The position numbers were made by a program, and so were the translations under genes. Under the pieces are notes generated by a model, which saw nothing but the letters and a program-made list of their open reading frames with translations, had not been told where the DNA came from and did no database searches. From Gallionellaceae bacterium (GTDB lineage Bacteria; Pseudomonadota; Gammaproteobacteria; Burkholderiales; Gallionellaceae), in the NCBI GenBank assembly GCA_030834965.1, contig JAUQWW010000058.1, positions 1 through 64,000 on the forward strand: a stretch of 64,000 nt of DNA. The letters run 5' to 3'. Shown here in pieces: positions 40,035-61,226 of the stretch. Each line of letters starts with the position of its first letter. Positions within the stretch are counted from its first letter, which is position 1.

Positions 40035-41024
40035 TCACGCCATCACCGTCTTCAGCATCAGTGCCGCACCGCACTGTTTACTGACGGCATTGGAGTCGAA
40101 CTTGCCGTCCTTGACGAACTTCCCCTTCTCATACAGGTTGGAAAAACTCCACAGGTAGGGCGTGGGCACGTGGCGCACACGGTAGCCGAAGCCGTTATAT
40201 TTTTCCAGCAGATAGAGCATGCGCGGAACCGACCAGTCGGTCACTTCGTGGTACCCCTTCATGGTCAGCGCGTCGACGGCGCTCTGCCGCCAGGTGAAGG
40301 GCGGCGTGCCGCTGACCGGCCGCCCCGCGGGCACCTGCACGGTCCGGGCGGTCAACGGGTCGCCGTTATGCAAATGCCCGGCAAAATTGAAGCCGCACTC
40401 CATGCCGTGGATGATGCCGATGAACGCCCACGGTATGTTATTTAAATCCTTGCTCACCTGCTCGTATACGGCGTGCCCCTGGTTAAGCTTCTTGACGTAG
40501 TAGGCCACGACCCCTTCGTTGCCGGGGCGCACCTTGCACGCATTGAAATATGCCTGGTATTCGCCCTCGAGCGAGGGGTAATCCTTGACCGCAAGCGGGA
40601 GCGGGATCGCCGCTGCCGCACCTCTGGTCTTTGCCGCACCTCTGGCCGTTGCCGGCGCCCTGGACTTCCGTTCTGGCTGCTCCCCTTTTTCTTCCAGCGC
40701 GGGGGGAAGACGGTCGCGGCCGTGCATCTCCCCGGAAAGCATCTGGAGGCGGTCCATGTGTCCCTCGATGGCGGCGAGATATCCGTCGAATGGGCCTTTC
40801 TTTGCCGCGGCAATGGCCTGTTCCAGATCCTGCGTGGCATCGGAGAGCGTTACCGCCGCGTCCAGCAATGTCGCCTGGTTCAGCATGGACAGCTTGCCGT
40901 TGAGCGATTCGACGGTCTTGATGATGGCCTTTTTTTCCTTCGCGTCGGCAGTGTTGGCGTGTCTCCGCCGCAGCGTGCTGATGGAGCGGCTGATTTCAAA
41001 ACGCAGTTCTTCGATCGGGTCCAT
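40035..41024 (-). CDS. Lysozyme-family protein with helical N-terminus
   Basis: The N-terminal 110 residues are helical with no signal peptide, followed by an Ala/Arg-rich linker. The C-terminal domain resembles the COG5526 lysozyme family: IPWAFIGIIHGMECGFNFAG carries the probable catalytic glutamate, followed by HLHNGDPLTARTVQVPAGRP, PPFTWRQSAVDALTMKGY and LYLLEKYNGFGYR. It would cut peptidoglycan if exported. The lack of a signal suggests delivery by another system or a cytoplasmic role until lysis. Confidence 0.8.
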   Translation of the reverse strand: MDPIEELRFEISRSISTLRRRHANTADAKEKKAIIKTVESLNGKLSMLNQATLLDAAVTLSDATQDLEQAIAAAKKGPFDGYLAAIEGHMDRLQMLSGEMHGRDRLPPALEEKGEQPERKSRAPATARGAAKTRGAAAAIPLPLAVKDYPSLEGEYQAYFNACKVRPGNEGVVAYYVKKLNQGHAVYEQVSKDLNNIPWAFIGIIHGMECGFNFAGHLHNGDPLTARTVQVPAGRPVSGTPPFTWRQSAVDALTMKGYHEVTDWSVPRMLYLLEKYNGFGYRVRHVPTPYLWSFSNLYEKGKFVKDGKFDSNAVSKQCGAALMLKTVMA

Positions 41025-41048
41025 TGTTTTTCTCCTTTTGTTGTTCTG

Positions 41049-42023
41049 TTATCGCAGGCCGGTCCTCATGGCCGCCAGCGCGCGCCGCCATGCGTCCGCC
41101 TGAGCGCTCAACTGCGCCGACCGCTCGGCGAGGGAGGCGACAGTAGCAGCCCCGCGCGGTTTGTCGTACACCATGACCAGGTCGCCCAGCAGCAAGGAAT
41201 ACTGGTCGAGCAGAACCACATAGCTGGAAACCCCTGCCCGGTAGCTTTCGATGCGCTGCGCCTCGACTCTTGCCACCTCGGGCTTCGTGAGCCCTTCCGT
41301 GTTGAAGCGCGCCAGCGGGGCCTCGGTCACAGTGCGGAACAGCTCGCTTGCGGCTGATCTCAGCGCCGTGACCAGCTCCCTCACCTTGGGTGATTCCTGG
41401 CTGACTACGCGCCGCAGCTCTTCGGCGGTAGCGTCTCTGGCGGCAAGGGCAATGAGCGGGTCAAGGGCGTTTAGGGCTTCCCCGAGCGCCATGCCCGCAC
41501 CGCCGCCCCCCGCCACCTCCAGAGCCATGCCCACGTTGCCGGCGAGAACCTGCAGCTGCCCTTTCGCCTCATCGATGTTGCGCCCTTCCGCCAGGACGAG
41601 GAGCAGCTGCGTGTAGTCTCCCACCGCAGCCAGGGCCTGGCGGAACGCCCGGGTTCCCGGCGGATCGGCCAGCTCGGAATAGTAATAACTGTCGTCGATA
41701 CAGAAACTGTTCTGTACGCCGGGTTCGTTGCCCTCCCCGCCCAGCATCAGGATGCCGGGGCAGCGTTGCAGCAGATGGTCCATGGTTGCATTGGCGGACG
41801 CGGGTTTGTCTCCCGCGCGCTGCCTTGCCCGGGCCTCGGCGGCGGACTTGCCCTGAGCGCGCTCCGCGAGCGCCAGGTCGTCCAGCAGCGGCTGGCTCGC
41901 CGCACTGAGATTGTCAAAAGCCTTCGCCACCATTCTCACCTCGGCGACGGGAGGTGGCGTAGCACAACCTGACAGGGCAAATGCAACCAGCACCGGGAGA
42001 CAGAGAGCAGCTGTGTTCTTCAT
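41049..42023 (-). CDS. Lipoprotein of unknown function
   Basis: The N-terminus has a lipobox (VAFALSGCATPPP, Cys about residue 20). The remaining 300 residues are mostly helical. A central cysteine pair region (QRCPGILMLGG, NSFCIDD) may form a disulfide. I do not recognise a family. It lies 12 bases after the CHAT gene and 24 bases before the lysozyme-like gene, so the three are almost certainly cotranscribed. Confidence 0.8.
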   Translation of the reverse strand: MKNTAALCLPVLVAFALSGCATPPPVAEVRMVAKAFDNLSAASQPLLDDLALAERAQGKSAAEARARQRAGDKPASANATMDHLLQRCPGILMLGGEGNEPGVQNSFCIDDSYYYSELADPPGTRAFRQALAAVGDYTQLLLVLAEGRNIDEAKGQLQVLAGNVGMALEVAGGGGAGMALGEALNALDPLIALAARDATAEELRRVVSQESPKVRELVTALRSAASELFRTVTEAPLARFNTEGLTKPEVARVEAQRIESYRAGVSSYVVLLDQYSLLLGDLVMVYDKPRGAATVASLAERSAQLSAQADAWRRALAAMRTGLR

Positions 42024-42035: not shown

Positions 42036-45000
42036 CTATGATTTTTCCTCGAGCGCCTTCTTCAACCGTGTCAATGCAGCGGCGACCTTCGAGCCCTCCT
42101 CCGCCACGGTCAGCAGAAAGTCGAGCTGATCAGTCACCGACGCAAAGTCTTTGGGGCTGCCCAGTTTTTCTACTTCACGATACCGTGCTGCAAGCATGTC
42201 CATGCGCTGATTGTCGGGCTCACCCTCCGCGAGTGCGTCGAACAGTCCCAGATCGACGGGATAGACCGCGTGCCAGAAATTTTTCTTTGTGGCGCTCAAA
42301 TCCCGAACCTTTGGCCGCACATTTTCAAGCGCTGCGGCAAGATTTTCATTCTCCTTTCCGGAACGTCTCTTTTTTCCCGTCTGCCACTCAACCGTCAATG
42401 CCCCGGTAAGCCAGTTGAACACGGGGTAGGGATCGAAGCGCCCTGCCTTCTCGGCCAGCTCATATGCCTGCCTATAGGCATCGCGCATGTTTTGCAGGGA
42501 TTCAACCCGTTCTGCGGGATCAACCATGGCCCGGCGCTTGAAGGCGCTTCCCCGCAAGGAGTAGCGCTCTGCGGTCGGCTCCAGGCCTTCCAGTCGCCGG
42601 ATGCCGCTGTCGATGGATGCCAGAATTTCTTCCCGGGGTTTCTTGCGCTCCTTCCACCACTGGACTGCGCGGCGCACCTCCAGGTTTGCCAGCTGCTCGA
42701 TATCCTTGAGGGTCATCGCGCCGTCTTCGGCCTTGAGCGCCTTCGTGTAATACTCCACTGCGGTGTCGAACTTCCCGGCCCTGCCGTAGGCGCGCCCCAG
42801 GGCTGCATACACCCGCCCGTCTTCCAGCCATTTTTTCTCCTCCAGCACCTTCTCGATGCGGCCTAGCCAGCTGACCGCGGCCGACATGTCTTCGCCCGCC
42901 CCGGTGGACAGGTTGGCGGCGATATTCTCGATCTCGGCCACTGCCTCTGCAGGAGACACATAAGCAGGCTTATCCTGGCCTCCCCTTGCACCCCCTTCTT
43001 CATGGACGAGGCGATAATCGGGGTCCCCATAACACTGGTACGCGCCCCAGGTATTGGTTTCGGGATGCTGCCGGAACGCGGCTCCGCGCGCCCGTTTCAC
43101 TGCCTCGCCGAAACGCATGCCGTCCAGCATGCCTTCGTAGAACGTCGTCGCGAATACAGTCGCAGCCGCGTCATCCACCGCCCAACCCGCGGCAATGACC
43201 GCACGCACGCCCATGCGGATGAACTCGGTGGCCACGTTGGCGGCGATGCGATTGTAATCACGCCGTTCGTTGAGTGCGTCTGGGCGCCCCTGGGTATCCT
43301 CTATGTGCCCCAGGTGGCAGCAGTTGATGAACACCAGCTCCGGCACATTGCGCATCTGGTGCACCTCGTTGGGTGACAGCACCGTCGTGTCGCCGATGAT
43401 CATCCCCGTCACCGGCCTGAGCGTGTTGGCCGCATCCGGCGGCAGCGGCTGGTGACAGCTCTGGCATTGCAGCAGCTCCTCCGGCAGGTAGTTGTAGACG
43501 CCATGGCCCGCCAGATGGAGCACCCTGTAGGGCCGTGCAAACAGCGCATTCATCACCTGCTCGGCCGACGGCCGTATCCTCTGCTCGGCGTTGAAATCGC
43601 TGCGTTGCAGCAGTTGCCACACGGCCTGCGCTTCCGCCTGTGCCCCTTTAAGCTCCACATACTTGCTGACGGGGTCCCCTATCACGAGGGCGGTCTTGTC
43701 CGTCACGTCGCGGACCGAGCCGCGAAACTCGGCCGATTCGAGCTGGCGCAGCATGCCGTGCTCGATGACGAACGGCAGGGCACTTTTATTGGACGGGTCC
43801 TCGAGAAGCTCCCACGGGTAGCGGGCCGCCTCCTCGTCAACGACAAGCACCAGATTGTCCTGGTCGGGAGCCTGGTCCTTGATGTCGTTGGGCAGCAAAA
43901 GCTCGAACATCGTGCGCGCCGTGGTGCGGTTGTCGCATGTGGTGCTGACCGACTGCTCGATGAAGCTGTCGACCAGCTCGCGCTGGGTGGCGAGCAGGCT
44001 GACCTCGCTGCGGGCCCGTTTCGTCAGGGCGGAGAAGCGCAGCGTCCCGTCGGAAGGCTCTCCCTTCTTGCCGCCGCCAAGAATCTGCAGGCGGTCCCAC
44101 CACCCGCCGGGCTCACTGTAGTCCACTCGGCGCAAGCCGCCGCTGACAGAGCAAAGCGTGGTCTCGAACACAAAATCCTTGCGGAACTGCGGTTCCGACT
44201 GAAGCCGCTCCAATGCCTTCACTGCCTGAATGGCCCGATCTTCCCACAGCTCGATGAACTCCACACCGCTGAGCCGCGCATCCTGCCCCGAGTTGGCGAG
44301 CGCCTGGTTGGCGCGCACCACTCCTTGCAGCAGGGCGTAGAGGGAATCGCTGACGCTGATGCCTCCGGCTCCCGTTCCGATAAGGAGACTGGTCACCTTG
44401 AAATCCTTCACCCGCTGCGCTTCCGCATTTTCCGCTCCGCCCGTGCCCCTCTCCCGCCACTCGGTGACATACTCCAGCAAGGCGCGGGCAAAGCTGCGCG
44501 CCAGCGAAGCGGCGCTCAGGCTGCCGACGGTGCCGAGACCCACCACGATGGCGCCTTGCGGCGTTGCGTCTTCGTTCCTGAAAAGCCGGGGATTGATGAA
44601 TATCGCACTGGTTTCGATGGCACCGGGATAGATACCCAGCTGTTGGCGGCGGCTCAGCGCCGAGTCCAGCACCCGGTCCAGATATTTTTCGGCGCTGATG
44701 ATCGTATCGCCGGCGTAGTGGCCTGTTGCCACGGGATGGCTGGCATAGGCCAGATTGCCGTGGGCCACGGTAACGCGCACCGGCAACCGCGGAGCTGCCT
44801 TGCGCCGGCGCTTGCGGGGCCGCGCCCCGAGGGCCTCGGCGACGAGCACCTCTTCGTCGGGATACAGATCTTCCGCCGCCCTTGGACGGGGAAAGGAAAC
44901 GGCTGCCGCCCTGGACACAGGCGGTGTTTTGGGCAACAGCGTGGTCGTACCGCGGGCGAGCAGTTCCTCGATCGCGTCAAAGGATTCCTCATGCGCGGGG

Positions 45001-47498
45001 AGGTCGCCATGCTCCGCGTCCATGTACCAGGTCGGCACATCCTTCGGTATGCCGCTGTCCCACGTAACCCGGCCGTCGCCGCGTGTGGTGGCCAGGAATT
45101 TGATCCTGTCCCCGGCGTTGGCGGCGGTTTCATCCAGATACATGCTGGCCAGCGTCACATCGGCGCATCCGGCCACATAGACCGTGCGCCCGGGGTCCAC
45201 GGGGGTCTTGTCGAGCATGTCGCGTAACTCGCCTGCCCGCTTCAGATCGGCATCAGCCGGCAGCACCCACCCGACACCCGCCTGGCCGTGATAGGTGTTC
45301 CATGTCTGCGACGCGAAATAATTCTCCCGGCTGTCCTTGGGCAGCATGGCGAGAACGCCCGGAAAGCGGGCGACGACCTCCAGCATCTTCTGCTGATTAT
45401 TTTTGATGTCGAGAAACGCGAGTTTGCGCAGGGTCGAGGACTGCCCCACCAGCAGCTCGGTGATCGAGTGAGATCCGCCATTCGGCGTGCCGAGCATGAC
45501 CACGCGGGCGTCGGCGTGAGCGCATATCTCCTTCCACAGGTCCGCGTTGAGGGCAAACATGGTGCGTGCCACCAGCCCCCCCATGGAGTGGGCCAGAATG
45601 CGCACCGGCTGGTTATGAGGCTTCGCCTGCTCGAATTCACTCCGCACCAGCCCTGCCAGCCGCTGCGCTTCCTGCTCCACCGGAAGGCGCCAGTCATAGG
45701 GGAAGGGCACCACCTTGTGGGTATTGGCCAGTCGCTGGATCAGCGCGCCATAGTAGCGGGCCATCACGCTGGTGGGACGCACCTCTCGCGCATCGATTTT
45801 CAGTTGCGTGAACGCTCCGGAGATCAGGCCGGGAATATCGACCCATACATGGTCGTCCCCCACCGTGAGCTCGCTCCCCATGATGCCCGGCAGCACGACT
45901 ACGACGGGCAGCGGTTCGACGGAACGGGGCACAATGGCGCGGGCAATGTTGACCACCGGCTTCGCCAGCGGCTCGAAGCCGGCGCTGTCGCCTGCCTGCC
46001 TTGTCAGTGCACGCACCAGTTGCGCGGCGCTGTCGGTATTCTGGAAATAGGTGAAGTGATTGACTTCGGGGCCCTTGTGAAAGCCGGCCAGAGCCTCGCC
46101 GGAGCGCTTCGCCCCGCCATACATCGACGGTGTGTTCACCACCAGATCGTGGTCGCTCTCATAGAAGCGGTCAGTCAGCCAGACCATGAGTCGTGCCCAC
46201 CACTTGTCGGGGTCGATGTCGCCGGCGATGACCGTCAGATCGCCAGAAACGACCGCCCTCGGCCAGTTCACCAGCTTGATGAAGGCCGATTCCGGCATCA
46301 TTGCTTCCAGGCCAGGCAGGGTCCGGGGGTCGGTCCGCTCCTGCACCACCGCCGCGATGAAGTCGCTGACGTCCGCGAATGCGTCCGCCAGGGGCGTGCC
46401 GGGCAGGGCCGCGCTGCCCAAGGTGCCGATGACGGACAGCCAGCGGTCCAGCCTCCCCGAGGCCAGCGTAGTCCCCAGAGCCGGGCAGGCCACCCGGACA
46501 AAACGCTCCACACGGAACTGCTTCTTCCTCAGTTCGGCATCCAGTGCCTTCAGCGATTTCAGGGTCTCCTTGTAGCCCTCGTCATCGACGTCCGCCAGTG
46601 CCAGTTCTTCCGGCAGGAACGGCGCCGCCCCGCCGTCGCCGGGCGCTCCCCGGCACAGCATCTCTCCGACCAGGCCGCCGCGGGAGTGGGTCACCAGGTG
46701 CACCACCGCATTCCTGGGCAGGATGGCGTTGAGCTTTTTCGCCAGGTCACGTGCATTGTCGAGAGGGCTTAGCGTGAGGTACGCATGCTCGAAGGCCAGC
46801 ACTCTGTCGCCATACGCCTGACGCAGTGTGTCCAGCTCGCCGCTGCGCGCCTTTGACCAGAGGTCGCCGAAACTCCCCCAAGTGCTGGACAGGGTTCCGT
46901 GGATAAAGACGAGACAGGGCTTGTCCGCCGGCCATCCGGCACTCCCGATATCAGCCAGATCAAAGCCGTCGGTCTTGAGTACGCACCGGTACAGACCGGG
47001 AGCGCGGCGTTTGGCGGAAGTCCGCTTCTCCACCACCTCGGCCACCTTTTTGGCCGTCATGCCGGCGAGATTGACGCCGAATATCTTGAGCCCCTTGATG
47101 AGCCAGTTGACGGGCCCCCTGGCCTCCATGCCGCCGGGCAGCAACTGCAATGAGTCGGGCACCGCCATGACGGCGGCCCCCGGCGCCTCACCTCTCGCCG
47201 CCGAGCCGCCAAAGCGCCTGCGGAAATCTTTGCCGTTCAGCCACAGCCGCTCGCCCCCTTCGAATTCAACCTCGATGAGATCGTTATCGGCGATATCCAC
47301 CGCCTCTACCGGCTGGTCCCCGCGGGCAGCGCCGGGGCGGAATGCCCCCTTCAGCTCAAGCTTCACCTGTTCGGTGCGAAGCACGGAACCGCCCGCCTGC
47401 CTGTCGGCCGCCCCCCGCATCCTGAACGATCCGCCCTTCTTATTGCCACTTTCTTCGATTGCCTCGGATGCTGGTTTTTCTCGTTGTTTTTTTGCCAT
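42036..47498 (-). CDS. Giant dual alpha/beta-hydrolase - CHAT protease - TPR protein
   Basis: The product has 1820 residues. Residues 1-180 form a basic N-terminal region. Hydrolase 1 spans about 190-500, with CLVFIHGTLSS, nucleophile S272 in VTHSRGGLVGEM and probable D451/H481. Hydrolase 2 spans about 530-850, LCAT/PGAP1-like, with PVVVVLPGIMGSEL and S638 in LAHSMGGLVART. Residues 900-1150 are unassigned. The CHAT domain spans about 1160-1500 with the His-Cys dyad at H1332 (LAGHG) and C1393 or C1394 (FINCCHLG). A TPR-like tail (VYAALGRAYGRAGKFDTAVE) covers 1520-1700. CHAT proteases act in conflict and programmed-death systems; the substrate here is unknown. Confidence 0.88.
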   Translation of the reverse strand: MAKKQREKPASEAIEESGNKKGGSFRMRGAADRQAGGSVLRTEQVKLELKGAFRPGAARGDQPVEAVDIADNDLIEVEFEGGERLWLNGKDFRRRFGGSAARGEAPGAAVMAVPDSLQLLPGGMEARGPVNWLIKGLKIFGVNLAGMTAKKVAEVVEKRTSAKRRAPGLYRCVLKTDGFDLADIGSAGWPADKPCLVFIHGTLSSTWGSFGDLWSKARSGELDTLRQAYGDRVLAFEHAYLTLSPLDNARDLAKKLNAILPRNAVVHLVTHSRGGLVGEMLCRGAPGDGGAAPFLPEELALADVDDEGYKETLKSLKALDAELRKKQFRVERFVRVACPALGTTLASGRLDRWLSVIGTLGSAALPGTPLADAFADVSDFIAAVVQERTDPRTLPGLEAMMPESAFIKLVNWPRAVVSGDLTVIAGDIDPDKWWARLMVWLTDRFYESDHDLVVNTPSMYGGAKRSGEALAGFHKGPEVNHFTYFQNTDSAAQLVRALTRQAGDSAGFEPLAKPVVNIARAIVPRSVEPLPVVVVLPGIMGSELTVGDDHVWVDIPGLISGAFTQLKIDAREVRPTSVMARYYGALIQRLANTHKVVPFPYDWRLPVEQEAQRLAGLVRSEFEQAKPHNQPVRILAHSMGGLVARTMFALNADLWKEICAHADARVVMLGTPNGGSHSITELLVGQSSTLRKLAFLDIKNNQQKMLEVVARFPGVLAMLPKDSRENYFASQTWNTYHGQAGVGWVLPADADLKRAGELRDMLDKTPVDPGRTVYVAGCADVTLASMYLDETAANAGDRIKFLATTRGDGRVTWDSGIPKDVPTWYMDAEHGDLPAHEESFDAIEELLARGTTTLLPKTPPVSRAAAVSFPRPRAAEDLYPDEEVLVAEALGARPRKRRRKAAPRLPVRVTVAHGNLAYASHPVATGHYAGDTIISAEKYLDRVLDSALSRRQQLGIYPGAIETSAIFINPRLFRNEDATPQGAIVVGLGTVGSLSAASLARSFARALLEYVTEWRERGTGGAENAEAQRVKDFKVTSLLIGTGAGGISVSDSLYALLQGVVRANQALANSGQDARLSGVEFIELWEDRAIQAVKALERLQSEPQFRKDFVFETTLCSVSGGLRRVDYSEPGGWWDRLQILGGGKKGEPSDGTLRFSALTKRARSEVSLLATQRELVDSFIEQSVSTTCDNRTTARTMFELLLPNDIKDQAPDQDNLVLVVDEEAARYPWELLEDPSNKSALPFVIEHGMLRQLESAEFRGSVRDVTDKTALVIGDPVSKYVELKGAQAEAQAVWQLLQRSDFNAEQRIRPSAEQVMNALFARPYRVLHLAGHGVYNYLPEELLQCQSCHQPLPPDAANTLRPVTGMIIGDTTVLSPNEVHQMRNVPELVFINCCHLGHIEDTQGRPDALNERRDYNRIAANVATEFIRMGVRAVIAAGWAVDDAAATVFATTFYEGMLDGMRFGEAVKRARGAAFRQHPETNTWGAYQCYGDPDYRLVHEEGGARGGQDKPAYVSPAEAVAEIENIAANLSTGAGEDMSAAVSWLGRIEKVLEEKKWLEDGRVYAALGRAYGRAGKFDTAVEYYTKALKAEDGAMTLKDIEQLANLEVRRAVQWWKERKKPREEILASIDSGIRRLEGLEPTAERYSLRGSAFKRRAMVDPAERVESLQNMRDAYRQAYELAEKAGRFDPYPVFNWLTGALTVEWQTGKKRRSGKENENLAAALENVRPKVRDLSATKKNFWHAVYPVDLGLFDALAEGEPDNQRMDMLAARYREVEKLGSPKDFASVTDQLDFLLTVAEEGSKVAAALTRLKKALEEKS

Positions 47499-47780: not shown

Positions 47781-49766
47781 ATGAAACTGCACGCTTTTGT
47801 CGCGATGCCTTTCGGCGTTAAGAAAGACAGCCAAGGCAGCGAGATTGATTTCAACCGTGTCTATGTCGAGCTGTTCAAACCTGCGCTTGAAGCGGCGGGC
47901 CTGGAGGTGTTTCGAGCTGATGAGGAACAACGCGCCGGCGACATCCGCACCGACATGTTCCAGGAGTTGCTGATTGCCGACCTGGTGGTGGCCGACCTCA
48001 CCATCGACAACCCGAATGTCTGGTATGAGCTGGGCGTGCGCCATGCGCTGCGCGCACGTGGCGTGTTGCTGTTGTGTGGAGGACGGGTGACTACCGCATT
48101 CGACCTGTATACCGATCGCAAGCTGCGCTACAGCATCAAGGACGGTGGACCCGATCCCGCGACGCTGGAAAACGACAAGCTCCACATCACCGAAATGGCA
48201 AAGGCAACGCTTGAATCCTGGCACGGCCGCAAGGTGAGCCCGGTCTATCAGCTGATGCCCAACCTGCAGGAACCGGACTGGAAGTCGCTGCGCATTGGTG
48301 ACGTGCGCGAATTCTGGGAGCGGTACGATGCGTGGGAGGATCGCGTTGAGTTGGCGCGCAAGGCCGGACATATCGGCAATGTGCTGGTGCTGGCTGATGA
48401 AGCGCCGGTCGCAGCATTTCGCGCCGACGCCTGGACCAAGGCCGGTGAGGCATTGCGCAAGGCCGAGCGCTTCGACTTTGCGCTGGAGCAGCTCGAACGC
48501 GGGCTGGCGATCGAGCCGCACAATCTCAGGGGCCTGCGCGAGTTGGGAACATGCCTGCAACGGCTGGCCCTGGCAGGCAGCCCCGGGCATTCATTGGATC
48601 GCGCGCGCGAGCATTACCACAATGTGCTGCAGATCTACCCTAACGATCCGGAAACCTGGGCACTGCTCGGCCGGCTCGACAAGGACGCTTGGATCTCTGC
48701 TTGGCGCCAGCCCGGCAAAACTCCGGCGCAAATGCGCGACGAAGCCGCGTACGAGGATGCGCTGCTGCGCGCGGCTATCGACAGCTACTCCCAGGGTTAC
48801 CGCCGCAACCCCAGCCATTATTATTCCGGCATCAACGCACTCACCCTGATGCACCTTTACCGCCATCTGACCAACGACGCGCGCTATGACCGCGAAATCT
48901 CCACCATGGCCGGTGCAGTGCGATTTGCAGCCGAATGCGAACCGTACGAATACCTGCGCTTCTGGTCGCAGACAACCCTTGGCGATCTGGAAGTGCTGCT
49001 CGGCACGCCCGATACGGTGAAGGCCGCCTACAAAGAGGCCATCGCGAAGAACGACAAGGACTGGTTCGCGCTCAACTCCAGCAGCGCGCAACTGCAACTG
49101 CTGAAGGATCTCGGGTTCCGCCCGGAAACGGTCGAGGCGGGCATCGCCGCCTTCGACCGCGCTCTGCAAAAACTGGCCAGACCTGAAGGCAGTTGGCAGC
49201 CGCGCCAGGTGTTCCTGTTCAGCGGCCACATGATCGACGCGCCGGATCGCCCCGCCCCGCGTTTTCCCGCCGCAAAGGAATCCATCGCGGCGCAGAAGAT
49301 CGCCGCAGCGCTGGCGCAACTCGGCGCCGGGCCGGAAGACCTCGCGCTCACCCAGGGTGCCTGTGGCGGCGACATCCTGTTTACCGAGGCCTGCCAGCAA
49401 CGCGGAGTAAAAGTGCATTGGCTGCAACCGTTCGATGAACCGGATTTCATCCGGAAATCCGTGATCAAGGGGGGCGAAGCCTGGCGCAACCGGTATTTTG
49501 ACGCCAAGGCCAAACTCGCCGCCCCACTCCGCTCCGCGCCGGAAGAGCTGGGCGAACCGCTGCAGAATACGGATGACGGCTATGCCTACGAACGCTGCAA
49601 CCTCTGGCTGCTCTACACCGCGCTGGCCTATGGCCTGGACAAGGTACATTTCATCTGCCTGTGGAATGGCGAGGGTGCTGACGGACTGGGGGGAACAGCG
49701 CACATGTACAACGAAGTGAATGAAAGAACAGGGAGAGTGATTTGGATCGATACCCGGCAGCTATAG
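47781..49766 (+). CDS. TIR-superfamily/TPR/SLOG-like protein
   Basis: This 661-residue cytoplasmic protein begins MKLHAFVAMPFGVKK. Its N-terminal domain (1-150) is of the nucleoside deoxyribosyltransferase/TIR superfamily type, with DFNRVYVELFKPALEAAGLE, DLVVADLTIDNPNVWYELG and a conserved glutamate there. A helical TPR-type middle part (about 170-450) follows. The C-terminal part resembles SLOG/LOG nucleotide-binding folds (LTQGACGGDILFTEACQQRG, VHFICLWNGEG). I start at 47781, where a GGGG element lies upstream; the frame opens at 47730. A damaged copy of its last residues lies at 56437-56545. Confidence 0.78.
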   Translation: MKLHAFVAMPFGVKKDSQGSEIDFNRVYVELFKPALEAAGLEVFRADEEQRAGDIRTDMFQELLIADLVVADLTIDNPNVWYELGVRHALRARGVLLLCGGRVTTAFDLYTDRKLRYSIKDGGPDPATLENDKLHITEMAKATLESWHGRKVSPVYQLMPNLQEPDWKSLRIGDVREFWERYDAWEDRVELARKAGHIGNVLVLADEAPVAAFRADAWTKAGEALRKAERFDFALEQLERGLAIEPHNLRGLRELGTCLQRLALAGSPGHSLDRAREHYHNVLQIYPNDPETWALLGRLDKDAWISAWRQPGKTPAQMRDEAAYEDALLRAAIDSYSQGYRRNPSHYYSGINALTLMHLYRHLTNDARYDREISTMAGAVRFAAECEPYEYLRFWSQTTLGDLEVLLGTPDTVKAAYKEAIAKNDKDWFALNSSSAQLQLLKDLGFRPETVEAGIAAFDRALQKLARPEGSWQPRQVFLFSGHMIDAPDRPAPRFPAAKESIAAQKIAAALAQLGAGPEDLALTQGACGGDILFTEACQQRGVKVHWLQPFDEPDFIRKSVIKGGEAWRNRYFDAKAKLAAPLRSAPEELGEPLQNTDDGYAYERCNLWLLYTALAYGLDKVHFICLWNGEGADGLGGTAHMYNEVNERTGRVIWIDTRQL

Positions 49767-49794: not shown

Positions 49795-50565
49795 ATGAAG
49801 ATATTCATATCCTATGCGAATGAGGAACGGTCAATAGCGGATGAGTTGGCTGTGCGGCTGCGCACTGAAGGACATACGGTATTCCTCGACAAGGATAACC
49901 TGCCCGAGGGCGAGGGATACGATGCCCAGATTCGCGCGGCAATTGCATCATGCGATCTGTTCCTGTTTCTGGTTTCTCCCCTGTCGGTTCAGCCCGGCCG
50001 CTACACGATGACCGAACTGAAGTTCGCGCGCGAGCAGTTTCCGAACCCTAAGGGACGAGTACTTCCGGTCATGACCAAAGCTACGCCGTTCAGCGGCATT
50101 CCAGCCTATTTAAGTGCGATCACCATCCTGCAACCGCAGGGCAATCTGGTGGCCGAGACAGTAGCGGAAGCCGATCGTTTGCTTGACCGGCATAGTCGGC
50201 GACGATGGCTGCGCATCGGTGGGGCCGCAGCAGTTGCGGTGATACTGGGCCTGGCTGGGGTCAACTGGTGGAGATCGGATACGGCTCCGCCTCCGTGCCA
50301 ATTGTCGGCCTTGTTGCTTGCCCAGAATGTCGACGGCCTGGCCCTGGATATCATCAGTCCCGCCGGCACCACGGCCCTCATGCTGGGGAATTCCCCGGTC
50401 CCGTTTGAAGTCGGCCCTTTCACGCAACGGGATGTCACATGGAATGCAATGCTACGCGGAAGGGATGGCAGTTCGCTTGGAAAGCAAGCTGTTACGGGGT
50501 GTCCCACGTCGCGTCTCAAAGTGGATTTTGGAGGGGGCTATGAATTGGTCATTGATCCGCGTTGA
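49795..50565 (+). CDS. Membrane-anchored TIR domain protein
   Basis: Residues 1-125 form a TIR domain: MKIFISYANEERSIADELA, the BB-loop region FLDKDNLPEGEGY and E74 in YTMTELKFAREQF at the catalytic-glutamate position of NAD-cleaving TIRs. One membrane helix (about 139-158) follows a basic stop-transfer stretch. About 95 extracytoplasmic residues with two cysteines complete the protein. It starts 28 bases after the previous gene without a strong ribosome-binding site and overlaps the next gene by 26 bases. Confidence 0.85.
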   Translation: MKIFISYANEERSIADELAVRLRTEGHTVFLDKDNLPEGEGYDAQIRAAIASCDLFLFLVSPLSVQPGRYTMTELKFAREQFPNPKGRVLPVMTKATPFSGIPAYLSAITILQPQGNLVAETVAEADRLLDRHSRRRWLRIGGAAAVAVILGLAGVNWWRSDTAPPPCQLSALLLAQNVDGLALDIISPAGTTALMLGNSPVPFEVGPFTQRDVTWNAMLRGRDGSSLGKQAVTGCPTSRLKVDFGGGYELVIDPR

Positions 50566-52892: not shown

Positions 52893-54491
52893 GTGCTTAA
52901 CAGCGGCCCAATCCTGTTTGCCTTTCTGCTCGGCGTCCTGCTCACGGCAGCGGCGTCGTGGGTGGTAGCAAGCCTGTACCGGCGACGCATGTTGGCGCTG
53001 ATGCGCGGCGGCCCGCCGCCTGATTCAGCAGCTCACGATGCATCGGCGCCATTGGTCGCCGAAACACCGCGCTTGCCTGCCACCATGGACTTGGCAGCCA
53101 ACCAGCGCGCATCCATGCGTTTCATGCTGCTATTGACCATCATGTGCTTGCTGATCGGCCTGACGCAATCCTGGCTGGAACTGCACTTTGTTTATACCAA
53201 CCCCGAATTTTCGCTGAACCGGATACTGATGCTCGGCGTCGTGTATGCCTGGCCGATGGTGCTGGCATGGGGCTTGGCGCGGCGCTGGTCCTGGCTGCGC
53301 ATCCTGGCAGGCGTGTGCCTCTACCTGGTGGCGATGGTGCTCCTCGTCATGTGGCGCTCCAACGAACAGCAGAACCTGGCGAGCGTCATCGTCTGGCTCG
53401 CCAGCCAGGTTGCCATCCCGCTGATCATCACGTTGTTCATCAGCGCGAGCGGGCGCATACGCGCGGTTGCACCCTACCTCCTGCCGCCCATCATCCTGCT
53501 GACCACCTCTTCCGTGTTTACGCTCGACATACTCAGCAATGCAACGGAGACGCCGCCCGGCTGGATCATCACGCTGGTAGGCATACTGGGGGGGACACCT
53601 GCCATCCTGCTGCTTGCCTTTGCGCCGTGGGTGCTGCTCGCATGGCCCGTGTACGCAATGAGCCAGCGCCTGGCCACGGCCTACCGGCATAAGCGCTTTT
53701 CCGATCTGATTTACCTGTTAGGCGTGTACTGGTTCATGGTGCTGTTCACCAGCACCTTGCCGGCGTTGCAGGGGGCAGGATGGGGGGCACTGGTGCAGAT
53801 GCTGCCGTGGCTGTGGATCCCGCTGGCCGGGTACAGCCTGAAGGGTTGGCTTGCACCGCGCGGCAACCCGCCTACCCTGCTGGTGCTGCGCGTGTTCCAG
53901 CGCGACGCACAGGTCAAGCGACTGTTCGACCAGGTGATCGAACGCTGGCGTCATACCGGCAACACTGTGCTGATCGCGGGCACCGATCTGATAAGCCGCA
54001 CGCTGGATCCGGATGAGTTGTTCGCCTACTTCGAGGGCCGCCTGGCCGAGCGCTTCGTCGCCAGCGAGAGCGAAGTGCCGCGGCGCATATCGGAGCTGGA
54101 TCTGGCGCCCGATCCGGACGGACGCTATCGCGTGAACGACTGTTATTGCTTCGACACCACCTGGCGCACCATGCTGGACGCGCTGGTACAAAAGGCTGAT
54201 GTGGTGCTGATGGACCTGCGCGGATTCAAGGAAAAAAACGCCGGCTGCATCCATGAGCTGGGCATACTCGCGGGCGCGTCCCATCTACAGCGTGTGGTGC
54301 TGCTGCATGACCAGGATACGCAACGGCCGGTGGCCGATACAGCTGTGGCAGGCGCACCTGCAGGCCGCTTCCAGTGGCTGGATGCCGGGCAACTGAACAA
54401 GGCCATGACCACGCGCGTATTGGCTGCATTGTTCCCTGCCACCCGCAAAAGTACCGATCTATCTCTTAACGACAAAAGGAGCACAGCATGA
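52893..54491 (+). CDS. Polytopic membrane protein with TIR/SLOG-like C-terminal domain
   Basis: The start is GTG at 52893, 17 bases after the previous stop. The 532-residue protein has about eight membrane helices in residues 6-320. The remaining 200 residues are cytoplasmic and resemble a TIR- or SLOG-superfamily fold: TLLVLRVFQRDAQVKRLFDQ, then ADVVLMDLRGFKEKNAGCIH and ELGILAGASHLQRVVLLHD, with a conserved E in the HELG segment. This tail recalls the first domain of the gene at 47781. The function is unknown. Confidence 0.72.
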   Translation: MLNSGPILFAFLLGVLLTAAASWVVASLYRRRMLALMRGGPPPDSAAHDASAPLVAETPRLPATMDLAANQRASMRFMLLLTIMCLLIGLTQSWLELHFVYTNPEFSLNRILMLGVVYAWPMVLAWGLARRWSWLRILAGVCLYLVAMVLLVMWRSNEQQNLASVIVWLASQVAIPLIITLFISASGRIRAVAPYLLPPIILLTTSSVFTLDILSNATETPPGWIITLVGILGGTPAILLLAFAPWVLLAWPVYAMSQRLATAYRHKRFSDLIYLLGVYWFMVLFTSTLPALQGAGWGALVQMLPWLWIPLAGYSLKGWLAPRGNPPTLLVLRVFQRDAQVKRLFDQVIERWRHTGNTVLIAGTDLISRTLDPDELFAYFEGRLAERFVASESEVPRRISELDLAPDPDGRYRVNDCYCFDTTWRTMLDALVQKADVVLMDLRGFKEKNAGCIHELGILAGASHLQRVVLLHDQDTQRPVADTAVAGAPAGRFQWLDAGQLNKAMTTRVLAALFPATRKSTDLSLNDKRSTA

Positions 54492-54521
54492 GCTTGTGAA
54501 ACATCGTTGACTGATTACGTG

Positions 54522-54544: not shown

Positions 54545-54571
54545 GAAACATGTGTTGAAAGGAGAAGCGAA

Positions 54572-55048: not shown

Positions 55049-55061
55049 CAAGGACAGCCAA

Positions 55062-56414: not shown

Positions 56415-56436
56415 CACGGTGGAGTGTACCCACTGC

Positions 56437-56545
56437 CGATTTGGCGAAATGTGGCGGTGGTGTGCCGAGGGGGCACAACATGTACAACGAAGTAAAGGAT
56501 AGAACGGGGCAGGTTCATGGCTGGATACAGGAAGCTTTGGTGAAA
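56437..56545 (+). pseudogene. Decayed fragment of the TIR-like/SLOG gene tail
   Basis: The ATG at 56480 opens a frame MYNEVKDRTGQVHGWI that copies the end of the gene at 47781 (MYNEVNERTGRVIWID, ATG 49704); 14 bases from ATGTACAACGAAGT are identical. Upstream sequence (TGCCGATTTGG...GGGGGCACAAC) resembles TGCCTGTGGAATGGC...GGGGGAACAGC of the intact gene in a shifted frame. This points to the remains of a duplicated gene. Confidence 0.6.
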
Positions 56546-56570
56546 CACAGAAATTATCAAGGGGGCGTCA

Positions 56571-57806
56571 ATGGCTAAAGTTTATGTCTCATCCACCGTC
56601 GCCGATCTGAAGAGAGAACGCCAAGTCGTTATCGACTGGCTGGTCGCTGCCGACCATCAGCCGGTGCACAGCTACGTGGCCGCCACCGAGACGGTGCGTG
56701 ACAGCTGCCTGGCCGATATGGAGCGCTGCGACCTGTATGTGCTGATTCTCGGCCATCGCTACGGCTACGTGCCGGAGCGGGGCAATCCGGAGGGATTATC
56801 CATCACCCATCTGGAATTCCGGCGCGCCGGAGAACTGGGCCTGCCGCGAATTGCGCTGATACGCACCAGCGTGCCGGACATCAGCCATTCCGACCTGCTC
56901 GACCCGGCCCGTAACCAACGCCTGCGGGATTTCCACAGCGAGGTCAGGCAGACCGTGCGCCCGGCGGAGTTCAATGATGAGGCGGAACTGATCGCCGCCC
57001 TCAGCACATCCGTACAGCGGGCATTGGGCGAAAGGTCTCGGCAAGCGGAAGTCCCTCGGGCTACCGGTCGTGAATCAGTTCGCGACAACTCGCCCGCCGT
57101 CCGACAACATCAGCGACCTGCCAGCCAGTCTGCATCCAACGGGCCCAGCCCTGCCACACAGCTTGGTAAGGGATGGTGGTCGACTACGCCTGGCATGCTG
57201 ACCGGCGCGGCGGCTGTCATCGCCGCGCTGATCGCCTTGTTCGCCTCTCGGGAAAATCCGCCTCCCCCGCCACCCGCCATTCCAGTGCAACAGCCGGCAG
57301 CGCCTGCGGCTATGGCGCAGCCTGCCGCAGCTGCTCGCGAATCTTCCACCGCAGCCGAATACATAGCGCCCGCACTGCCCCGTGTGGTTCTGGCCGGCCC
57401 GGCGGAGGCCAGCTTCGAGAAATATCGCCCCAGCACCTACACCGTCCTTGGCATCGAGTCCTTGCCCCGCACGCCTACCCATTACGCTTTGCGATTTCGC
57501 ATCCGCCTGCTCACCCGAAGCAGCATGGACATGAATTTCTGGGACAGCAGCTTCCGGCTGCTGATCGACGGCCTGCCCAGCGCACCGGACTCCAACCTGA
57601 ATGAAATCGTCCCCGGCAACGCCGCCAAGGAAGGCATGGTCAGTTATCAAGTGCCCTATGGCGCGCACGTTCAGGCACTGCGCATCATTCATCACGAATC
57701 ACTGGGCGAAACCGCGGATCTGCCATTGCATCTTGCTGCCGCAAAAACGCCCGGTGTGGCTGCTCCGGCCGCAAACGGCGGCAAGAAGCCACGTAACGTT
57801 CAATAA
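56571..57806 (+). CDS. DUF4062 membrane protein
   Basis: The N-terminal 150 residues are a DUF4062 domain, a TIR-superfamily member: MAKVYVSSTVADLKRERQVV, CDLYVLILGHRYGYVPE and E82 in ITHLEFRRAGELG. A linker leads to one membrane helix (about 208-225). A Pro/Ala-rich stretch and about 150 extracytoplasmic beta-rich residues follow. AAGGGGG precedes the ATG by six bases. The layout (TIR-like domain inside, sensor outside) repeats that of the neighbours. Confidence 0.83.
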   Translation: MAKVYVSSTVADLKRERQVVIDWLVAADHQPVHSYVAATETVRDSCLADMERCDLYVLILGHRYGYVPERGNPEGLSITHLEFRRAGELGLPRIALIRTSVPDISHSDLLDPARNQRLRDFHSEVRQTVRPAEFNDEAELIAALSTSVQRALGERSRQAEVPRATGRESVRDNSPAVRQHQRPASQSASNGPSPATQLGKGWWSTTPGMLTGAAAVIAALIALFASRENPPPPPPAIPVQQPAAPAAMAQPAAAARESSTAAEYIAPALPRVVLAGPAEASFEKYRPSTYTVLGIESLPRTPTHYALRFRIRLLTRSSMDMNFWDSSFRLLIDGLPSAPDSNLNEIVPGNAAKEGMVSYQVPYGAHVQALRIIHHESLGETADLPLHLAAAKTPGVAAPAANGGKKPRNVQ

Positions 57807-57836
57807 CGGATTTTTATCTAATTCGGGAGAGCTCAA

Positions 57837-59171
57837 ATGGCGGGCGTGTTCATCAACTACAGGCGTGACGATGCCAAGTCTGAGGCGGGGAGGCTGTTCG
57901 ACTGGCTGAGCCGGTATTTCGGCAAGGACCAGGTGTTCATGGATGTCTCGGGCAGCATCGAGCCCGGTCTTGAGTTCGACAGGGTCATCGAGACAGCGGT
58001 GTCCTCGTGCAATGCCCTGCTAGTGGTGATAGGCAAGGAGTGGCTCACGGCGGAGGACGCAAAGGGTAAGCGCCGCCTGGATGATCCTAATGATTTCGTG
58101 CACATGGAAATCGCAGCGGCACTCAGGCGCGACATTCGGGTGATTCCGGTACTGGTGCAGGGAGCGGCCATGCCGGATGAGGGCAGCCTTCCCGATGACC
58201 TTAAACGGCTTGCCAAGCGGCAGGCTTCGGAGATAAGCGACAACCGCTGGGAGTTCGATACGCAGCAATTGGTAAAGGTGCTGGAAAAGGCCGGGGTGAA
58301 GGCCAAACCTGGCCAAGCAGTTGCTTCCGATGAGCGCGCCACACCGACTCAGCAAGTCACGAAAAAATTCAACTGGAAGGCCATCACCAGCGTGGTTCTG
58401 GGCATATTGATGATGAGCCTGTTCTCGGGAGAAACGGTCGATCAGGACACGAAGATAGGTGGATTGATATTCTCACTGGTTGCATTGGGCCTTGGCATCA
58501 GCGCCTTCTACGATATGAAGCACAGCCCCGACGCAAGCATGACCAGAGTGAAGATGCTGTCCATCGCCGGCATGGCTCTAGGCGCAATCCTGAGCCTCGC
58601 CTTTATCGGAACGCTGACAACATCCGAGACGCCGGTGCTGCCAGTTGTCGAGACGCAACCCTCATCAGGTCTGCCAGCCCCGACGCCTTCCGCGCCTGCG
58701 CCGTCCGTACCGACGCCTTCTGTACGCGTGCCCCCTCTGTCCACGCCTGTTGTACCCAGACCCTCTGTGCCGACACCTGCACCCTCGGCACCCTCTGCAC
58801 CCGCCACTGGGCTTCCGGACGATTGGGGAATATTCAACAAGGCATTGAAGGAACCCGCACCTGCGCCGCGCGCGATCCAGCCGATCAACATCAGCGGCTC
58901 ATGGCGCGGCCAGGATGGCACTTACATCTTTCAGCAGTCGGGAAACAGGGTCAACTTCCAATTGTACGGCTGGAACCAGTCGCTGATTGCCCTAGGAACG
59001 GGCGCGATCGTACAGGGGATGGTGACGATTGCGTATAACCGTGTCGACAACACCGGCGGCGAGGCAAGGCTTCAGGTTTCCGTCGATGGAAGGCAGATGG
59101 CGGGCAGCTACAAAAACCTCGTTACGGGTGAGGCAGGCGTAGTGGTTTTGGCCCGCCAGGCAGAGGAGTGA
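57837..59171 (+). CDS. TIR protein with three membrane helices and a C-terminal domain
   Basis: Residues 1-155 form a TIR domain with MAGVFINYRRDDAKSEAGRL and E91 in DFVHMEIAAALRRD, at the catalytic position. Membrane helices lie near 182-197, 208-225 and 240-258. A Pro/Thr/Ser-rich repeat (267-330) and a beta-rich C-terminal domain (SGSWRGQDGTYIFQQSGNRV) follow. GGGAGAG precedes the ATG. The next TIR gene starts six bases after its stop, and their TIR domains are close paralogues. Confidence 0.87.
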   Translation: MAGVFINYRRDDAKSEAGRLFDWLSRYFGKDQVFMDVSGSIEPGLEFDRVIETAVSSCNALLVVIGKEWLTAEDAKGKRRLDDPNDFVHMEIAAALRRDIRVIPVLVQGAAMPDEGSLPDDLKRLAKRQASEISDNRWEFDTQQLVKVLEKAGVKAKPGQAVASDERATPTQQVTKKFNWKAITSVVLGILMMSLFSGETVDQDTKIGGLIFSLVALGLGISAFYDMKHSPDASMTRVKMLSIAGMALGAILSLAFIGTLTTSETPVLPVVETQPSSGLPAPTPSAPAPSVPTPSVRVPPLSTPVVPRPSVPTPAPSAPSAPATGLPDDWGIFNKALKEPAPAPRAIQPINISGSWRGQDGTYIFQQSGNRVNFQLYGWNQSLIALGTGAIVQGMVTIAYNRVDNTGGEARLQVSVDGRQMAGSYKNLVTGEAGVVVLARQAEE

Positions 59172-59177
59172 GATCGA

Positions 59178-61226
59178 ATGGGCGGCATTTTTATCAGTTA
59201 TCGCAGGGAAGACAGCGCCGGCCACGCGGGGCGGCTATTTGACCGGCTGCAGGAGCGGTTCGGCAAGGATCATGTGTTCATGGATGTGGCGGGCATCGAG
59301 CCGGGCGTTGATTTCGTGGAGGCGATCGACAGCGCCGTTGGATCGTGCGATGCGCTGATCGTGGTGATCGGCCGCAAGTGGCTCACCTGCACCGATGCTG
59401 CGGGAAACCGGCGGCTGGATGATCCGAAAGATTTTATCCGCCTGGAAACCGCCACGGCGCTGCGCCGGGGAATTCGGGTGATTCCCGTTCTGATTCAGGA
59501 TACCGCGATGCCGACGGAGAAAGATCTCCCGGAAGATATTGTGAAGCTGGCCCGGCGGCAGGGCATTGAAATCAGCGATGGCCACTGGGGTTCTGACACC
59601 GAAGCCCTGATCGAAACCCTGACCAAGGTGCTGCCCGGCGAGGCGAAGCCGTCACCGGCCGAAAAAAACCCCGAGACGCCAATCATTCCGCCCGCTCCGG
59701 AGAAAAACCGCCTCGTTTGGCTGATCTCCACCATTACCGCGGTAGTGGTTGCGTTGGGCGGCCTGCTTTCAACCATTGATTCGGTGAAAAACACCTTCAG
59801 CGGGCTCTTTTCCTCTCAATCGGAGAAGAGAATCGAGACAACGGCACCCTCCTCTGCTGAGACGCCACCACCGCAGGTAAGTGTTGTTGTGCCAAACCTG
59901 ATCGGCATATCACTCGATGCCGCCGTGGCGCAGCTTCGTCGGGAACGGCTGCAACCCGGTGCCGTGAGAGGCCGCCCCGAAGACCGTTCGCCGGGGACGG
60001 TGGTGGAGCAGGAGCCGGCAGCGGGCAGCCGTCTTGATCCGGGATCAAAGGTGCATCTGGTCGTTGCCGAAAATCCGGCAGAACCGGAAAAAAGGCCAGA
60101 GCCGAAACCCGAACCAGAGCCGGTTGCCGTTCCGAAACTGGTCGGGCTGTCGCAGGAAAATGCCCGAGCGGCACTGAAGAAGGCTGGGCTTGCGATGGGC
60201 AAGGTCCGGCAGGTGGAATCGCGCCAAGCAAAACCCGGCACGGTGATCGAACAGGCGCCTCCGGCCGGGCGACCGCTGGCCAAGGGAAGTGTCGTAACGC
60301 TGGTCGTTGCGCTTGAGCCGCCAACTCCCGTGCTTGCGACGGTGCCGAAGCTGGGCGGACTCACCGTGGAAATGGCGCGCGAATCTCTCGCGCGGGAAGG
60401 GCTCACGGCGGGCGCTGTACACGAAAAAGCCAGCGACCTTGGCCGCCCCGGAACCGTTATCGACCAGAGGCCTAAACCCGGCCAGCAGGTACAGAAAGGC
60501 ACGACAGTGGAATTGCTGATCGCGACCGCACCGGCGGAGGCCAAGCTTGTGGAGGTGCCAAAGCTGACTGGACTCACCTTGGCAATGGCGCGCGAATCCC
60601 TCGCACGGGAAGGGCTCAAGCCTGGCGTATTACACAAGAAAGTGTATGACCGCGCCAGTCCCGGAACCGTGATCGACCAGAAGCCGGGTCCCGGCCAGCC
60701 GATTAAAAGAGGAGCAGCGGTGGAACTGGTGATTGCAGCCGCATCGGCGGGAACCGAGCCTGCGGCGACGGACGGCAAAGTCACCGTCATTGCGCAGGGC
60801 GAACCTACTGCCAGAAGATTCTGGGAGGGAGCGAAAAAACCTGCCTACAGCGCAATGATGGCCAGGCTCTACAGCGACATCCTGAAAGAATCGGCCTCAG
60901 CCCCCATCGAGATGAAGATCGACACAAGCGGTGAGCGTGACATGCGCGTTCTGGAAAAGATGCTCAGAGACCCAAAGCGCTTGTGCGAAAGCACGGGCGC
61001 GGACATCGTGCTCGCTGCACGGGTACAGGAGACCTTTGCATCCTCCTCTGTGGAAAGCGCATACTGGCCGGAATTGCGTCAGACGGCGATCGTCTGCAAC
61101 AGCGGTAGACAGTTTGACCAACGCAACAATCTTTCTCCAGAGCGGATTGATAAATTCCCCTTCGAAAAAACCATGGCCGAGGCCATGCAGAAGTTCGCCA
61201 GGGAATATCGTCATCTGCTGAAGTGA
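59178..61226 (+). CDS. TIR-TM-PASTA protein
   Basis: This 682-residue protein has a TIR domain (1-150, MGGIFISYRREDSAGHAGRL, E90 in DFIRLETATALRRG) and one membrane helix at 179-200. Four PASTA repeats follow at about 237-297, 317-378, 388-449 and 459-520. The last two have near-identical segments (MARESLAREGL, PGTVIDQ). A C-terminal domain (535-682) is unassigned. PASTA repeats elsewhere bind muropeptides or beta-lactams outside Ser/Thr kinases; here a TIR replaces the kinase. GGAG lies before the ATG. Confidence 0.88.
   Translation: MGGIFISYRREDSAGHAGRLFDRLQERFGKDHVFMDVAGIEPGVDFVEAIDSAVGSCDALIVVIGRKWLTCTDAAGNRRLDDPKDFIRLETATALRRGIRVIPVLIQDTAMPTEKDLPEDIVKLARRQGIEISDGHWGSDTEALIETLTKVLPGEAKPSPAEKNPETPIIPPAPEKNRLVWLISTITAVVVALGGLLSTIDSVKNTFSGLFSSQSEKRIETTAPSSAETPPPQVSVVVPNLIGISLDAAVAQLRRERLQPGAVRGRPEDRSPGTVVEQEPAAGSRLDPGSKVHLVVAENPAEPEKRPEPKPEPEPVAVPKLVGLSQENARAALKKAGLAMGKVRQVESRQAKPGTVIEQAPPAGRPLAKGSVVTLVVALEPPTPVLATVPKLGGLTVEMARESLAREGLTAGAVHEKASDLGRPGTVIDQRPKPGQQVQKGTTVELLIATAPAEAKLVEVPKLTGLTLAMARESLAREGLKPGVLHKKVYDRASPGTVIDQKPGPGQPIKRGAAVELVIAAASAGTEPAATDGKVTVIAQGEPTARRFWEGAKKPAYSAMMARLYSDILKESASAPIEMKIDTSGERDMRVLEKMLRDPKRLCESTGADIVLAARVQETFASSSVESAYWPELRQTAIVCNSGRQFDQRNNLSPERIDKFPFEKTMAEAMQKFAREYRHLLK

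Follow-up and report, generated by a model that had tools for sequence, protein, structure and literature searches.

Results

A gene that joins a TIR domain to PASTA repeats

The window analyzed here is a stretch of 64,000 nucleotides from a Gallionellaceae bacterium (GenBank assembly GCA_030834965.1, contig JAUQWW010000058.1, positions 1 to 64,000 of the forward strand), and toward its end lies a gene whose product carries a TIR domain, a transmembrane (TM)-like segment, four PASTA repeats, and a further C-terminal domain (CTD) (Table 1). A preliminary description of the product as a TIR domain and four PASTA repeats across one membrane-like segment is confirmed by the open reading frame (ORF), Pfam, and hydropathy. 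The order TIR-TM-PASTA given there holds, but the CTD (residues ~536-682) and the gene cluster around the gene had been overlooked. On the 682-residue product, Pfam finds TIR_2 at residues 4 to 143 (E = 7e-13) and four PASTA stretches (E = 1.5e-59), both above the curated cut-offs. The ATG is preceded by AGGAG with a spacer of 9 bases, resembling a ribosome-binding site, and the gap to the upstream TIR gene is 6 bases, as in an operon.

Two trivial explanations of the ORF were discarded. A chance or wrong-strand ORF is ruled out by the reverse-strand stops in the frame read, together with the Pfam E value of the PASTA stretches, and a fragment of a PASTA kinase by the Pfam result, where TIR_2 and PASTA are the only families and no kinase domain is found. 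Also, the protein scores 156 bits with the PknB_PASTA_kin model, below its cut-off of 450. A profile search of the own genome (99.74% complete) detected no further PASTA protein, its four matches all being in this gene; therefore, no PASTA kinase is present there.

The arrangement TIR-TM-PASTA recurs in three other loci, with four repeats in L047 (the same locus as L039; a Nitrosomonadales metagenome-assembled genome) and L048 (a Sulfurimicrobium metagenome-assembled genome) and five in L100 (a genome of the same class). The CTD of the window protein was not found by blastp in the TIR-PASTA proteins of these three loci.

Table 1 Features of the TIR-PASTA gene and of its surroundings (positions in the window; residues in those of each protein)
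Feature	Position	Strand	Basis or remark
TIR-TM-4xPASTA-CTD gene	59178..61226	+	Uninterrupted ORF, ATG 59178 to TGA 61226, 682 residues
TIR domain (residues 1-150), SARM1-like, presumed cytoplasmic	59178..59627	+	Pfam TIR_2, SARM1 profile match, predicted fold
E90, putative catalytic glutamate	59445..59447	+	Aligned with Glu of SARM1 DWVHKE; helix 86-96 of model
TM-like segment (residues 179-197)	59712..59768	+	Mean Kyte-Doolittle 2.34
PASTA repeat 1 (residues 234-299)	59877..60074	+	Pfam
PASTA repeat 2 (residues 314-380)	60117..60317	+	Pfam
PASTA repeat 3 (residues 385-451)	60330..60530	+	Pfam; 61% identical to repeat 4
PASTA repeat 4 (residues 456-522)	60543..60743	+	Pfam
CTD, ~147 residues (536-682), TolB-N/PelC/FlgT-like by model	60783..61223	+	Relatives, predicted model
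Upstream TIR protein, three TM-like segments	57837..59171	+	TIR 60% identical to that of TIR-PASTA (blastp)
DUF4062 protein, one TM-like segment (208-226)	56571..57806	+	Pfam 3.8e-21
Protein with eight TM-like segments	52893..54491	+	Relatives in L049, L050, L100
TIR_2 protein, TM-like segment 138-156	49795..50565	+	Pfam 7.5e-19
AMPF-motif N-terminal domain, TPR-S/TRAF-binding, conserved C-terminal part	47781..49766	+	Pfam TPR-S 2.3e-17
DUF7379 lipase-like/CHAT/TPR-S protein, 1820 residues, divergent	42036..47498	-	Homologues in L051, L100
Two proteins without family (40035-41024, 41049-42023)	40035..42023	-	Kept in L100, 63% and 53% identical

The TIR domain resembles that of SARM1

When a profile built from 36 relatives of the TIR domain was run against solved structures, the SARM1 TIRs came out on top (E = 7e-17), with the FISYRR motif in common. 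In the profile alignment, E90 aligns with the glutamate in DWVHKE of SARM1, which we take to be E642, given that the title of structure 7cm7 names E642A. The predicted model of the domain (predicted local distance difference test, pLDDT, of 90.6) places E90 within a helix spanning residues 86 to 96, and its comparison with the SARM1 TIR gives, in the first rows, a Z of 19.3 and a root mean square deviation (rmsd) of 1.8 to 1.9 Å over 136 residues at 27 to 29% identity. Hence, the predicted fold and the catalytic glutamate in helix C that characterize the NADase branch of the TIR superfamily are both found.

This glutamate is kept in all 78 aligned members of the family, down to 32% identity, a set that includes the window protein and was gathered by similarity, not as a random sample of TIR domains. 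Residues Y8, R9, R10, D36, G65, W68, and L117 are invariant too (74 of 74 aligned members). The earlier assignment of glutamate 90 to the NADase position is upheld by the alignment with the SARM1 catalytic glutamate and by this conservation, and competence as a NADase is likely because a SARM1-type predicted fold and an invariant E90 occur together.

Membrane segment and PASTA repeats

A TM-like segment similar to that of the window protein lies between TIR and PASTA in all three other TIR-PASTA proteins. A second hydrophobic stretch, at residues 46 to 64 (mean 1.7), falls inside the TIR fold and is read as fold core, not membrane. The PASTA repeats would thus lie beyond a single membrane-like segment, hence in the periplasm, with the TIR domain in the cytoplasm.

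The four repeats score above the cut-off of the PASTA family profile, and the region matches the PASTA domains of known structure from Stk1 and PknB (E = 1e-9 to 1e-4). Within the window protein, repeats 3 and 4 form the closest pair, the remaining pairs being 36 to 45% identical. Repeat 1 shares 58 to 62% identity with repeat 1 of L047 and L048, and repeat 2 shares 45 to 46% with their repeat 2, which indicates that the start of the array is common and its end has been reshaped. Between L047 and L048, the nonsynonymous (dN) and synonymous (dS) divergences are 0.027 and 0.33 for the TIR domain (ratio ~0.08) and 0.187 and 0.574 for the PASTA region (ratio ~0.33); the ratio is ~0.15 in the C-terminal part and ~0.65 in the linker. 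Accordingly, dN is below dS in every part, and the TIR-PASTA protein is under purifying selection between these two relatives.

The preliminary description proposed that the PASTA repeats would link cell-wall fragments to NAD+ cleavage. A reading of wall fragments by the repeats is plausible, although muropeptide or lipid II is a ligand of only some PASTA family members. Nonetheless, in passages of a study of PASTA kinases, the PASTA domains of PknB govern its localization, and losing ligand binding mislocalizes and over-activates the kinase (PMC6428115), so that a PASTA ligand might either raise or lower the activity.

The C-terminal domain is a separate and exchanged module

Four proteins, in L049, L050, L051, and L052, carry TIR, a TM-like segment, and the CTD but no PASTA, with CTDs 35 to 55% identical to that of the window; the L050 copy is broken by a frame change. 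Because of these four proteins, the CTD is regarded as a separate domain, and modules have therefore been exchanged between TIR proteins. All 7 copies of the CTD have Cys640, and 6 of the 7 have Cys603.

No solved sequence relative of the CTD was found up to E 5. A moderate-confidence model predicted from five sequences shows an alpha/beta domain, whose structural neighbors are FlgT (Z 9.7), HpaA (9.3), PqiC (8.6), PelC (8.4), and TolB (8.3 and below), with rmsd values of 3.1 to 4.9 Å, and the first Foldseek row is PelC in PelBC (E = 6.1e-5) with a low TM-score of 0.38. Rows of histidyl-tRNA synthetase come next at Z 7.4, so part of the likeness reflects a common arrangement. The leading named matches are envelope proteins, either periplasmic or lipoproteins. 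This likeness of the model fits a periplasmic place of the CTD, although it is suggestive only.

In L040 (4622-5629), a relative of the CTD (33% identical) stands behind a hydrophobic N-terminus and adjoins a papain-like peptidase gene, both features being recognized by eye; the domain is thus not confined to TIR proteins.

A wider family of TIR proteins with different C-terminal parts

A TM-like segment follows the TIR domain in 66 of the 78 family members. Their C-terminal parts (77) fall into 28 groups by blast linkage, a procedure that may split distant relatives and join multi-domain ones. Among the 25 listed of the 36 Pfam families in this set, PASTA occurs in 4 of 74 members, DUF4190 in 3, and FGE-sulfatase in 2, whereas CHASE2, SAVED, Pterin_4a, ankyrin, and TPR occur in one member each. 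The CHASE2 case is in the own genome (L045:6464-8158(-), G000 contig C47; CHASE2 E = 5.3e-15), where a TIR of the same family is joined through a TM-like segment to CHASE2, an extracytoplasmic sensor domain. TIR-SAVED, for its part, is a proven NADase effector. The sequences define a TIR-TM-X family of receptor-like build, in which the outside parts are exchangeable.

When GTDB genomes were scanned with two short peptide patterns, which favor close relatives, 35 loci came out, of which 2 are TIR-PASTA, 4 TIR-CTD, and 29 other. In the tree, the window protein groups with L047 and L048 (support 99/87), and L100 stands beside the TIR-CTD group (84/87); based on this topology, TIR-PASTA proteins may have had two origins or one. 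In another genome of the family (G030), the CTD lies at a contig end, which may hold a cut copy of TIR-PASTA.

An immunity-like island surrounds the gene

The TIR-PASTA gene closes a run of + strand genes (47781-61226) encoding, in order, the AMPF/TPR-S protein, a TIR-TM protein, a CarboxypepD_reg protein, an SH3-like protein, a multi-TM protein, a lone Hcp, a TPR-methyltransferase, a DUF4062 protein, a TIR-multi-TM protein, and TIR-PASTA. The AMPF/TPR-S protein has no TM-like segment and, with its TPR-S/TRAF-binding region, presumably resembles the N-terminal half of animal ASK kinases. The C-terminal part of the multi-TM protein shows a weak likeness to nucleoside deoxyribosyltransferase (E = 0.094). 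These genes suggest an immunity-like (conflict) island.

The AMPF/TPR-S gene adjoins TIR-PASTA in 4 of 4 loci and is whole only in the window and L039 (78% identical). In L048 (7089-7927), an AMPF remnant is left, with end pieces (residues 1-55 and 439-661, 71-78% identical) in different frames and the middle missing, next to an intact TIR-PASTA gene; in L100, the match covers the last 186 residues only, at 42% and on the opposite strand. In L047, L048, and L100, TIR-PASTA has a caspase gene as a neighbor (86, 85, and 37% identical to the Pfam-confirmed caspase of L051). The lipase-CHAT-TPR-S protein (38%) and a portion of the multi-TM protein (33%) are present in L100 as well, and in L104 AMPF, a portion of DUF4062, and the neighboring TIR follow the order of the window (83, 56, and 62%).

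Within the order, an AMPF match is present in 20 of 349 genomes, own included; of the others, five are matched in the C-terminal part alone and two at no more than 31 to 33%. This C-terminal part also occurs alone, as in L119 to L123, which match only residues ~467 to 661. Of the 19 other AMPF loci, 5 have a TIR of this kind nearby (and a sixth, L113, weakly), 6 patatin, 4 lipase-CHAT, 4 the multi-TM protein, and 3 caspase. From this variation of neighbors, the island has a modular make-up in which TIR-PASTA forms one branch that may be present or absent. The DUF7379/lipase-CHAT-TPR-S protein looks like a core effector of such islands. Relatives of it were seen in L051, L058, L100, L119, L120, L122, and L123, and a caspase gene in L051, L100, L120, L122, and L123.

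The lone Hcp gene (54572-55048; T6SS_HCP E = 5.3e-40) has no companion from any other type VI secretion system family among the 18 window genes scanned. The only tRNAs of the window are at 2-284, distant from the island. The G+C content is 0.60 to 0.63 from 40 kb onward and 0.53 to 0.60 before, with no clear border, and a promoter scan was uninformative, with 2 promoter-like sites against 4.1 expected and none near 59 kb. Mobile origins were rejected as well: 10 plasmid records matched, none covering 80% of the protein, and the single phage record matched the PASTA part only. A match on a Rhodovulum plasmid, to a PASTA-annotated protein beside baseplate-like genes, was set aside.

Comparison with known systems

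SARM1/TIR-1 supplies the closest solved TIR, both by profile and by predicted fold, sharing the YRR motif and the catalytic glutamate. However, SARM1 has its TIR joined to ARM and SAM domains, whereas in the window protein the TIR comes first, followed by a TM-like segment and PASTA. With the PASTA Ser/Thr kinases (PknB, PrkC, and Stk1), the common plan would be a cytoplasmic enzyme, one TM segment, and a linear PASTA array; the window protein differs in having a TIR in place of the kinase domain and an extra C-terminal domain. For the CTD, the tentative resemblance to PelC, TolB-N, FlgT, and PqiC domains is at the level of the predicted fold, with no sequence match, and differs in context, the CTD being part of a TIR protein.

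With Thoeris, the common element is the TIR, with weak matches to the ThcB4 and ThsB models. Thoeris was rejected as an assignment: the ThcB4 match reached 38.5 bits against a curated cut-off of 220, and the ThsB match in PADLOC, which gives no cut-offs, was weak (8e-8). The PADLOC matches to PD-T4-6 cover the PASTA part only. We know of no membrane anchor or PASTA in Thoeris.

TIR, caspase, CHAT, patatin, and TPR-S are all part of one conflict-system vocabulary. The terms patatin and TPR-S were not found in PMC7159879 or PMC8195603, nor CHAT in PMC7159879. In passages of these sources, the counter-invader systems described by Kaur et al. use TIR and caspase as effectors (PMC7159879, PMC8195603), and TIR makes ADP-ribose and cyclic ADP-ribose (cADPR) (PMC7159879). 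The iSTAND MoxR-vWA ternary conflict systems (Kaur et al. 2020) have PASTA, PEGA, OmpA, or Sel1 behind TM segments, for which a role near the membrane or wall is inferred there (PMC7159879). However, the passages of PMC7159879 describe no TIR-TM-PASTA protein, and the MoxR/vWA pair of such systems was not seen in the region covered: no MoxR, vWA, or STAND family was found in the 18 window genes scanned (30.6-61.8 kb), nor by eye downstream to 75.5 kb. A BCS1-type AAA is present at 38731. No TIR-PASTA fusion was found in the literature searched, which left subscription journals largely and supplements wholly outside, an earlier listing thus being possible. By this comparison, the idea of wall contact through TM-PASTA in conflict systems has already been published, and a SARM1-like TIR joined directly to PASTA is the part not found in the literature searched.

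The statement that bacterial PASTA repeats normally sit on kinases or penicillin-binding proteins holds as a general rule, from which PASTA proteins without a TIR match, a WD40-PASTA protein, and the published TM-PASTA conflict systems depart. Genomes of the same order or class also encode proteins that have six or seven PASTA repeats but in which blastp finds no TIR (L034:1-1595(-), L102:4756-6804(-), L103:2575-4788(+), and L106:5478-10322(+)). In L052 (1628-6274), an AAA_5 ATPase gene (MoxR-like by eye) lies next to the WD40-PASTA protein, and this pair directly precedes three tandem TIR genes, one of them with the CTD of the window.

Discussion

The arrangement described above suggests a TIR protein anchored in the membrane that acts as a NADase or makes a signal, and whose activity or location depends on an exchangeable module facing the envelope, a reading of sequences and predicted models to which we give an even chance. 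The product would be a single-pass inner-membrane receptor-like protein with its SARM1-type TIR in the cytoplasm and, in the periplasm, four PASTA repeats and a TolB-N/PelC-like CTD forming an exchangeable module that would read or grip the envelope, most simply via peptidoglycan. This module would set where or when the TIRs cluster; on being brought together with its own copies or with neighboring TIR proteins, the TIR would cleave NAD+, by which the cell would be killed or arrested, or an ADP-ribose-type signal would be made. TIR-PASTA would then be one of several TIR branches of a conflict island in which AMPF/TPR-S would be the recurring member and lipase-CHAT-TPR-S, caspase, patatin, and the multi-TM protein the variable ones. 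The protein may in this way couple the envelope's condition to an alarm or self-destruct response.

Several observations weigh against this reading. The fusion is rare, being detected, beyond the own genome, in at least 0 of 158 genomes of the family, 1 of 399 of the order, 1 of 369 of the class, and 0 of 398 of the phylum, samples whose sizes include the own genome and whose counts are lower bounds because two to seven candidates were scored per genome. According to passages of PMC3601408, muropeptide binding is not general or intrinsic to PASTA domains but depends on the local site, and only one of three PrkC PASTA domains bound muropeptide. The CTD model has a pLDDT of 73.5 and derives from five sequences, its Z values are little above the common level of the tool, and the Foldseek TM-scores are low. 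The charge flanking the TM-like segment is balanced (2+/2- before and 1+/1- after), so the orientation rests on relatives and domains. Moreover, the AMPF gene is partial in L048 and L100, 5 of the 19 other AMPF loci have none of the island genes queried (some of them on short contigs), and the ThcB4 score leaves the nearest curated model of TIR defense unreached.

The chief rival, possible but doubtful, holds that PASTA and the CTD act as a passive tether that keeps the TIR close to the division site or the peptidoglycan, with the trigger coming from inside through AMPF/TPR-S and the other TIRs of the island. It would agree with a neighbor that has no TM-like segment and carries TPR-S, a sensor domain by its Pfam name, with the faster evolution of PASTA relative to TIR, and with the control of localization by PASTA in PknB (passages of PMC6428115). 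However, the own genome encodes another TIR of this family that carries CHASE2, and this favors sensing over mere tethering.

A more specific form of the envelope-module reading, which we consider rather unlikely as a whole, would make the protein a bacterial cell-surface immune receptor. In this case, PASTA and a CTD that perhaps forms rings or complexes would sense peptidoglycan fragments from phage entry, neighbor lysis, or wall attack and would cluster the TIRs, leading to NAD+ loss or to an ADP-ribose signal to other effectors, and the outside modules (PASTA, CTD, CHASE2, and others) would be swapped like sensors. To our knowledge, sensing by the bacterial TIR immunity proteins described so far takes place within the cell. 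A periplasmic wall-binding-type module on a TIR would put the trigger at the envelope, ahead of phage gene expression, and would parallel the animal receptors that couple peptidoglycan to TIR signaling. The TIR-TM-X family, with its many C-terminal groups, would offer a panel of candidate sensors.

Improbable, in our view, is that the TIR acts as a scaffold or as a second-messenger maker that activates caspase, lipase, or patatin partners, with no killing NADase. Several effector-like genes do lie near TIR-PASTA in such islands, and TIR products are established as messengers elsewhere (ADP-ribose and cADPR, in passages of PMC7159879). Nonetheless, the invariant E90 and YRR motif would be needed by a messenger-maker and not by a pure scaffold, and thus count against the scaffold half only. 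Finally, it is very improbable that the gene was left over from domain shuffling in a TIR-rich island and is inert or decaying, as the rare and patchy occurrence of the fusion, the likeness of repeats 3 and 4 to a recent duplicate, and the AMPF remnant in L048 could suggest, since the gene has no stop or frameshift, keeps a ribosome-site-like sequence and a 6-base spacing, and has relatives in L047 and L048 with dN below dS in every part.

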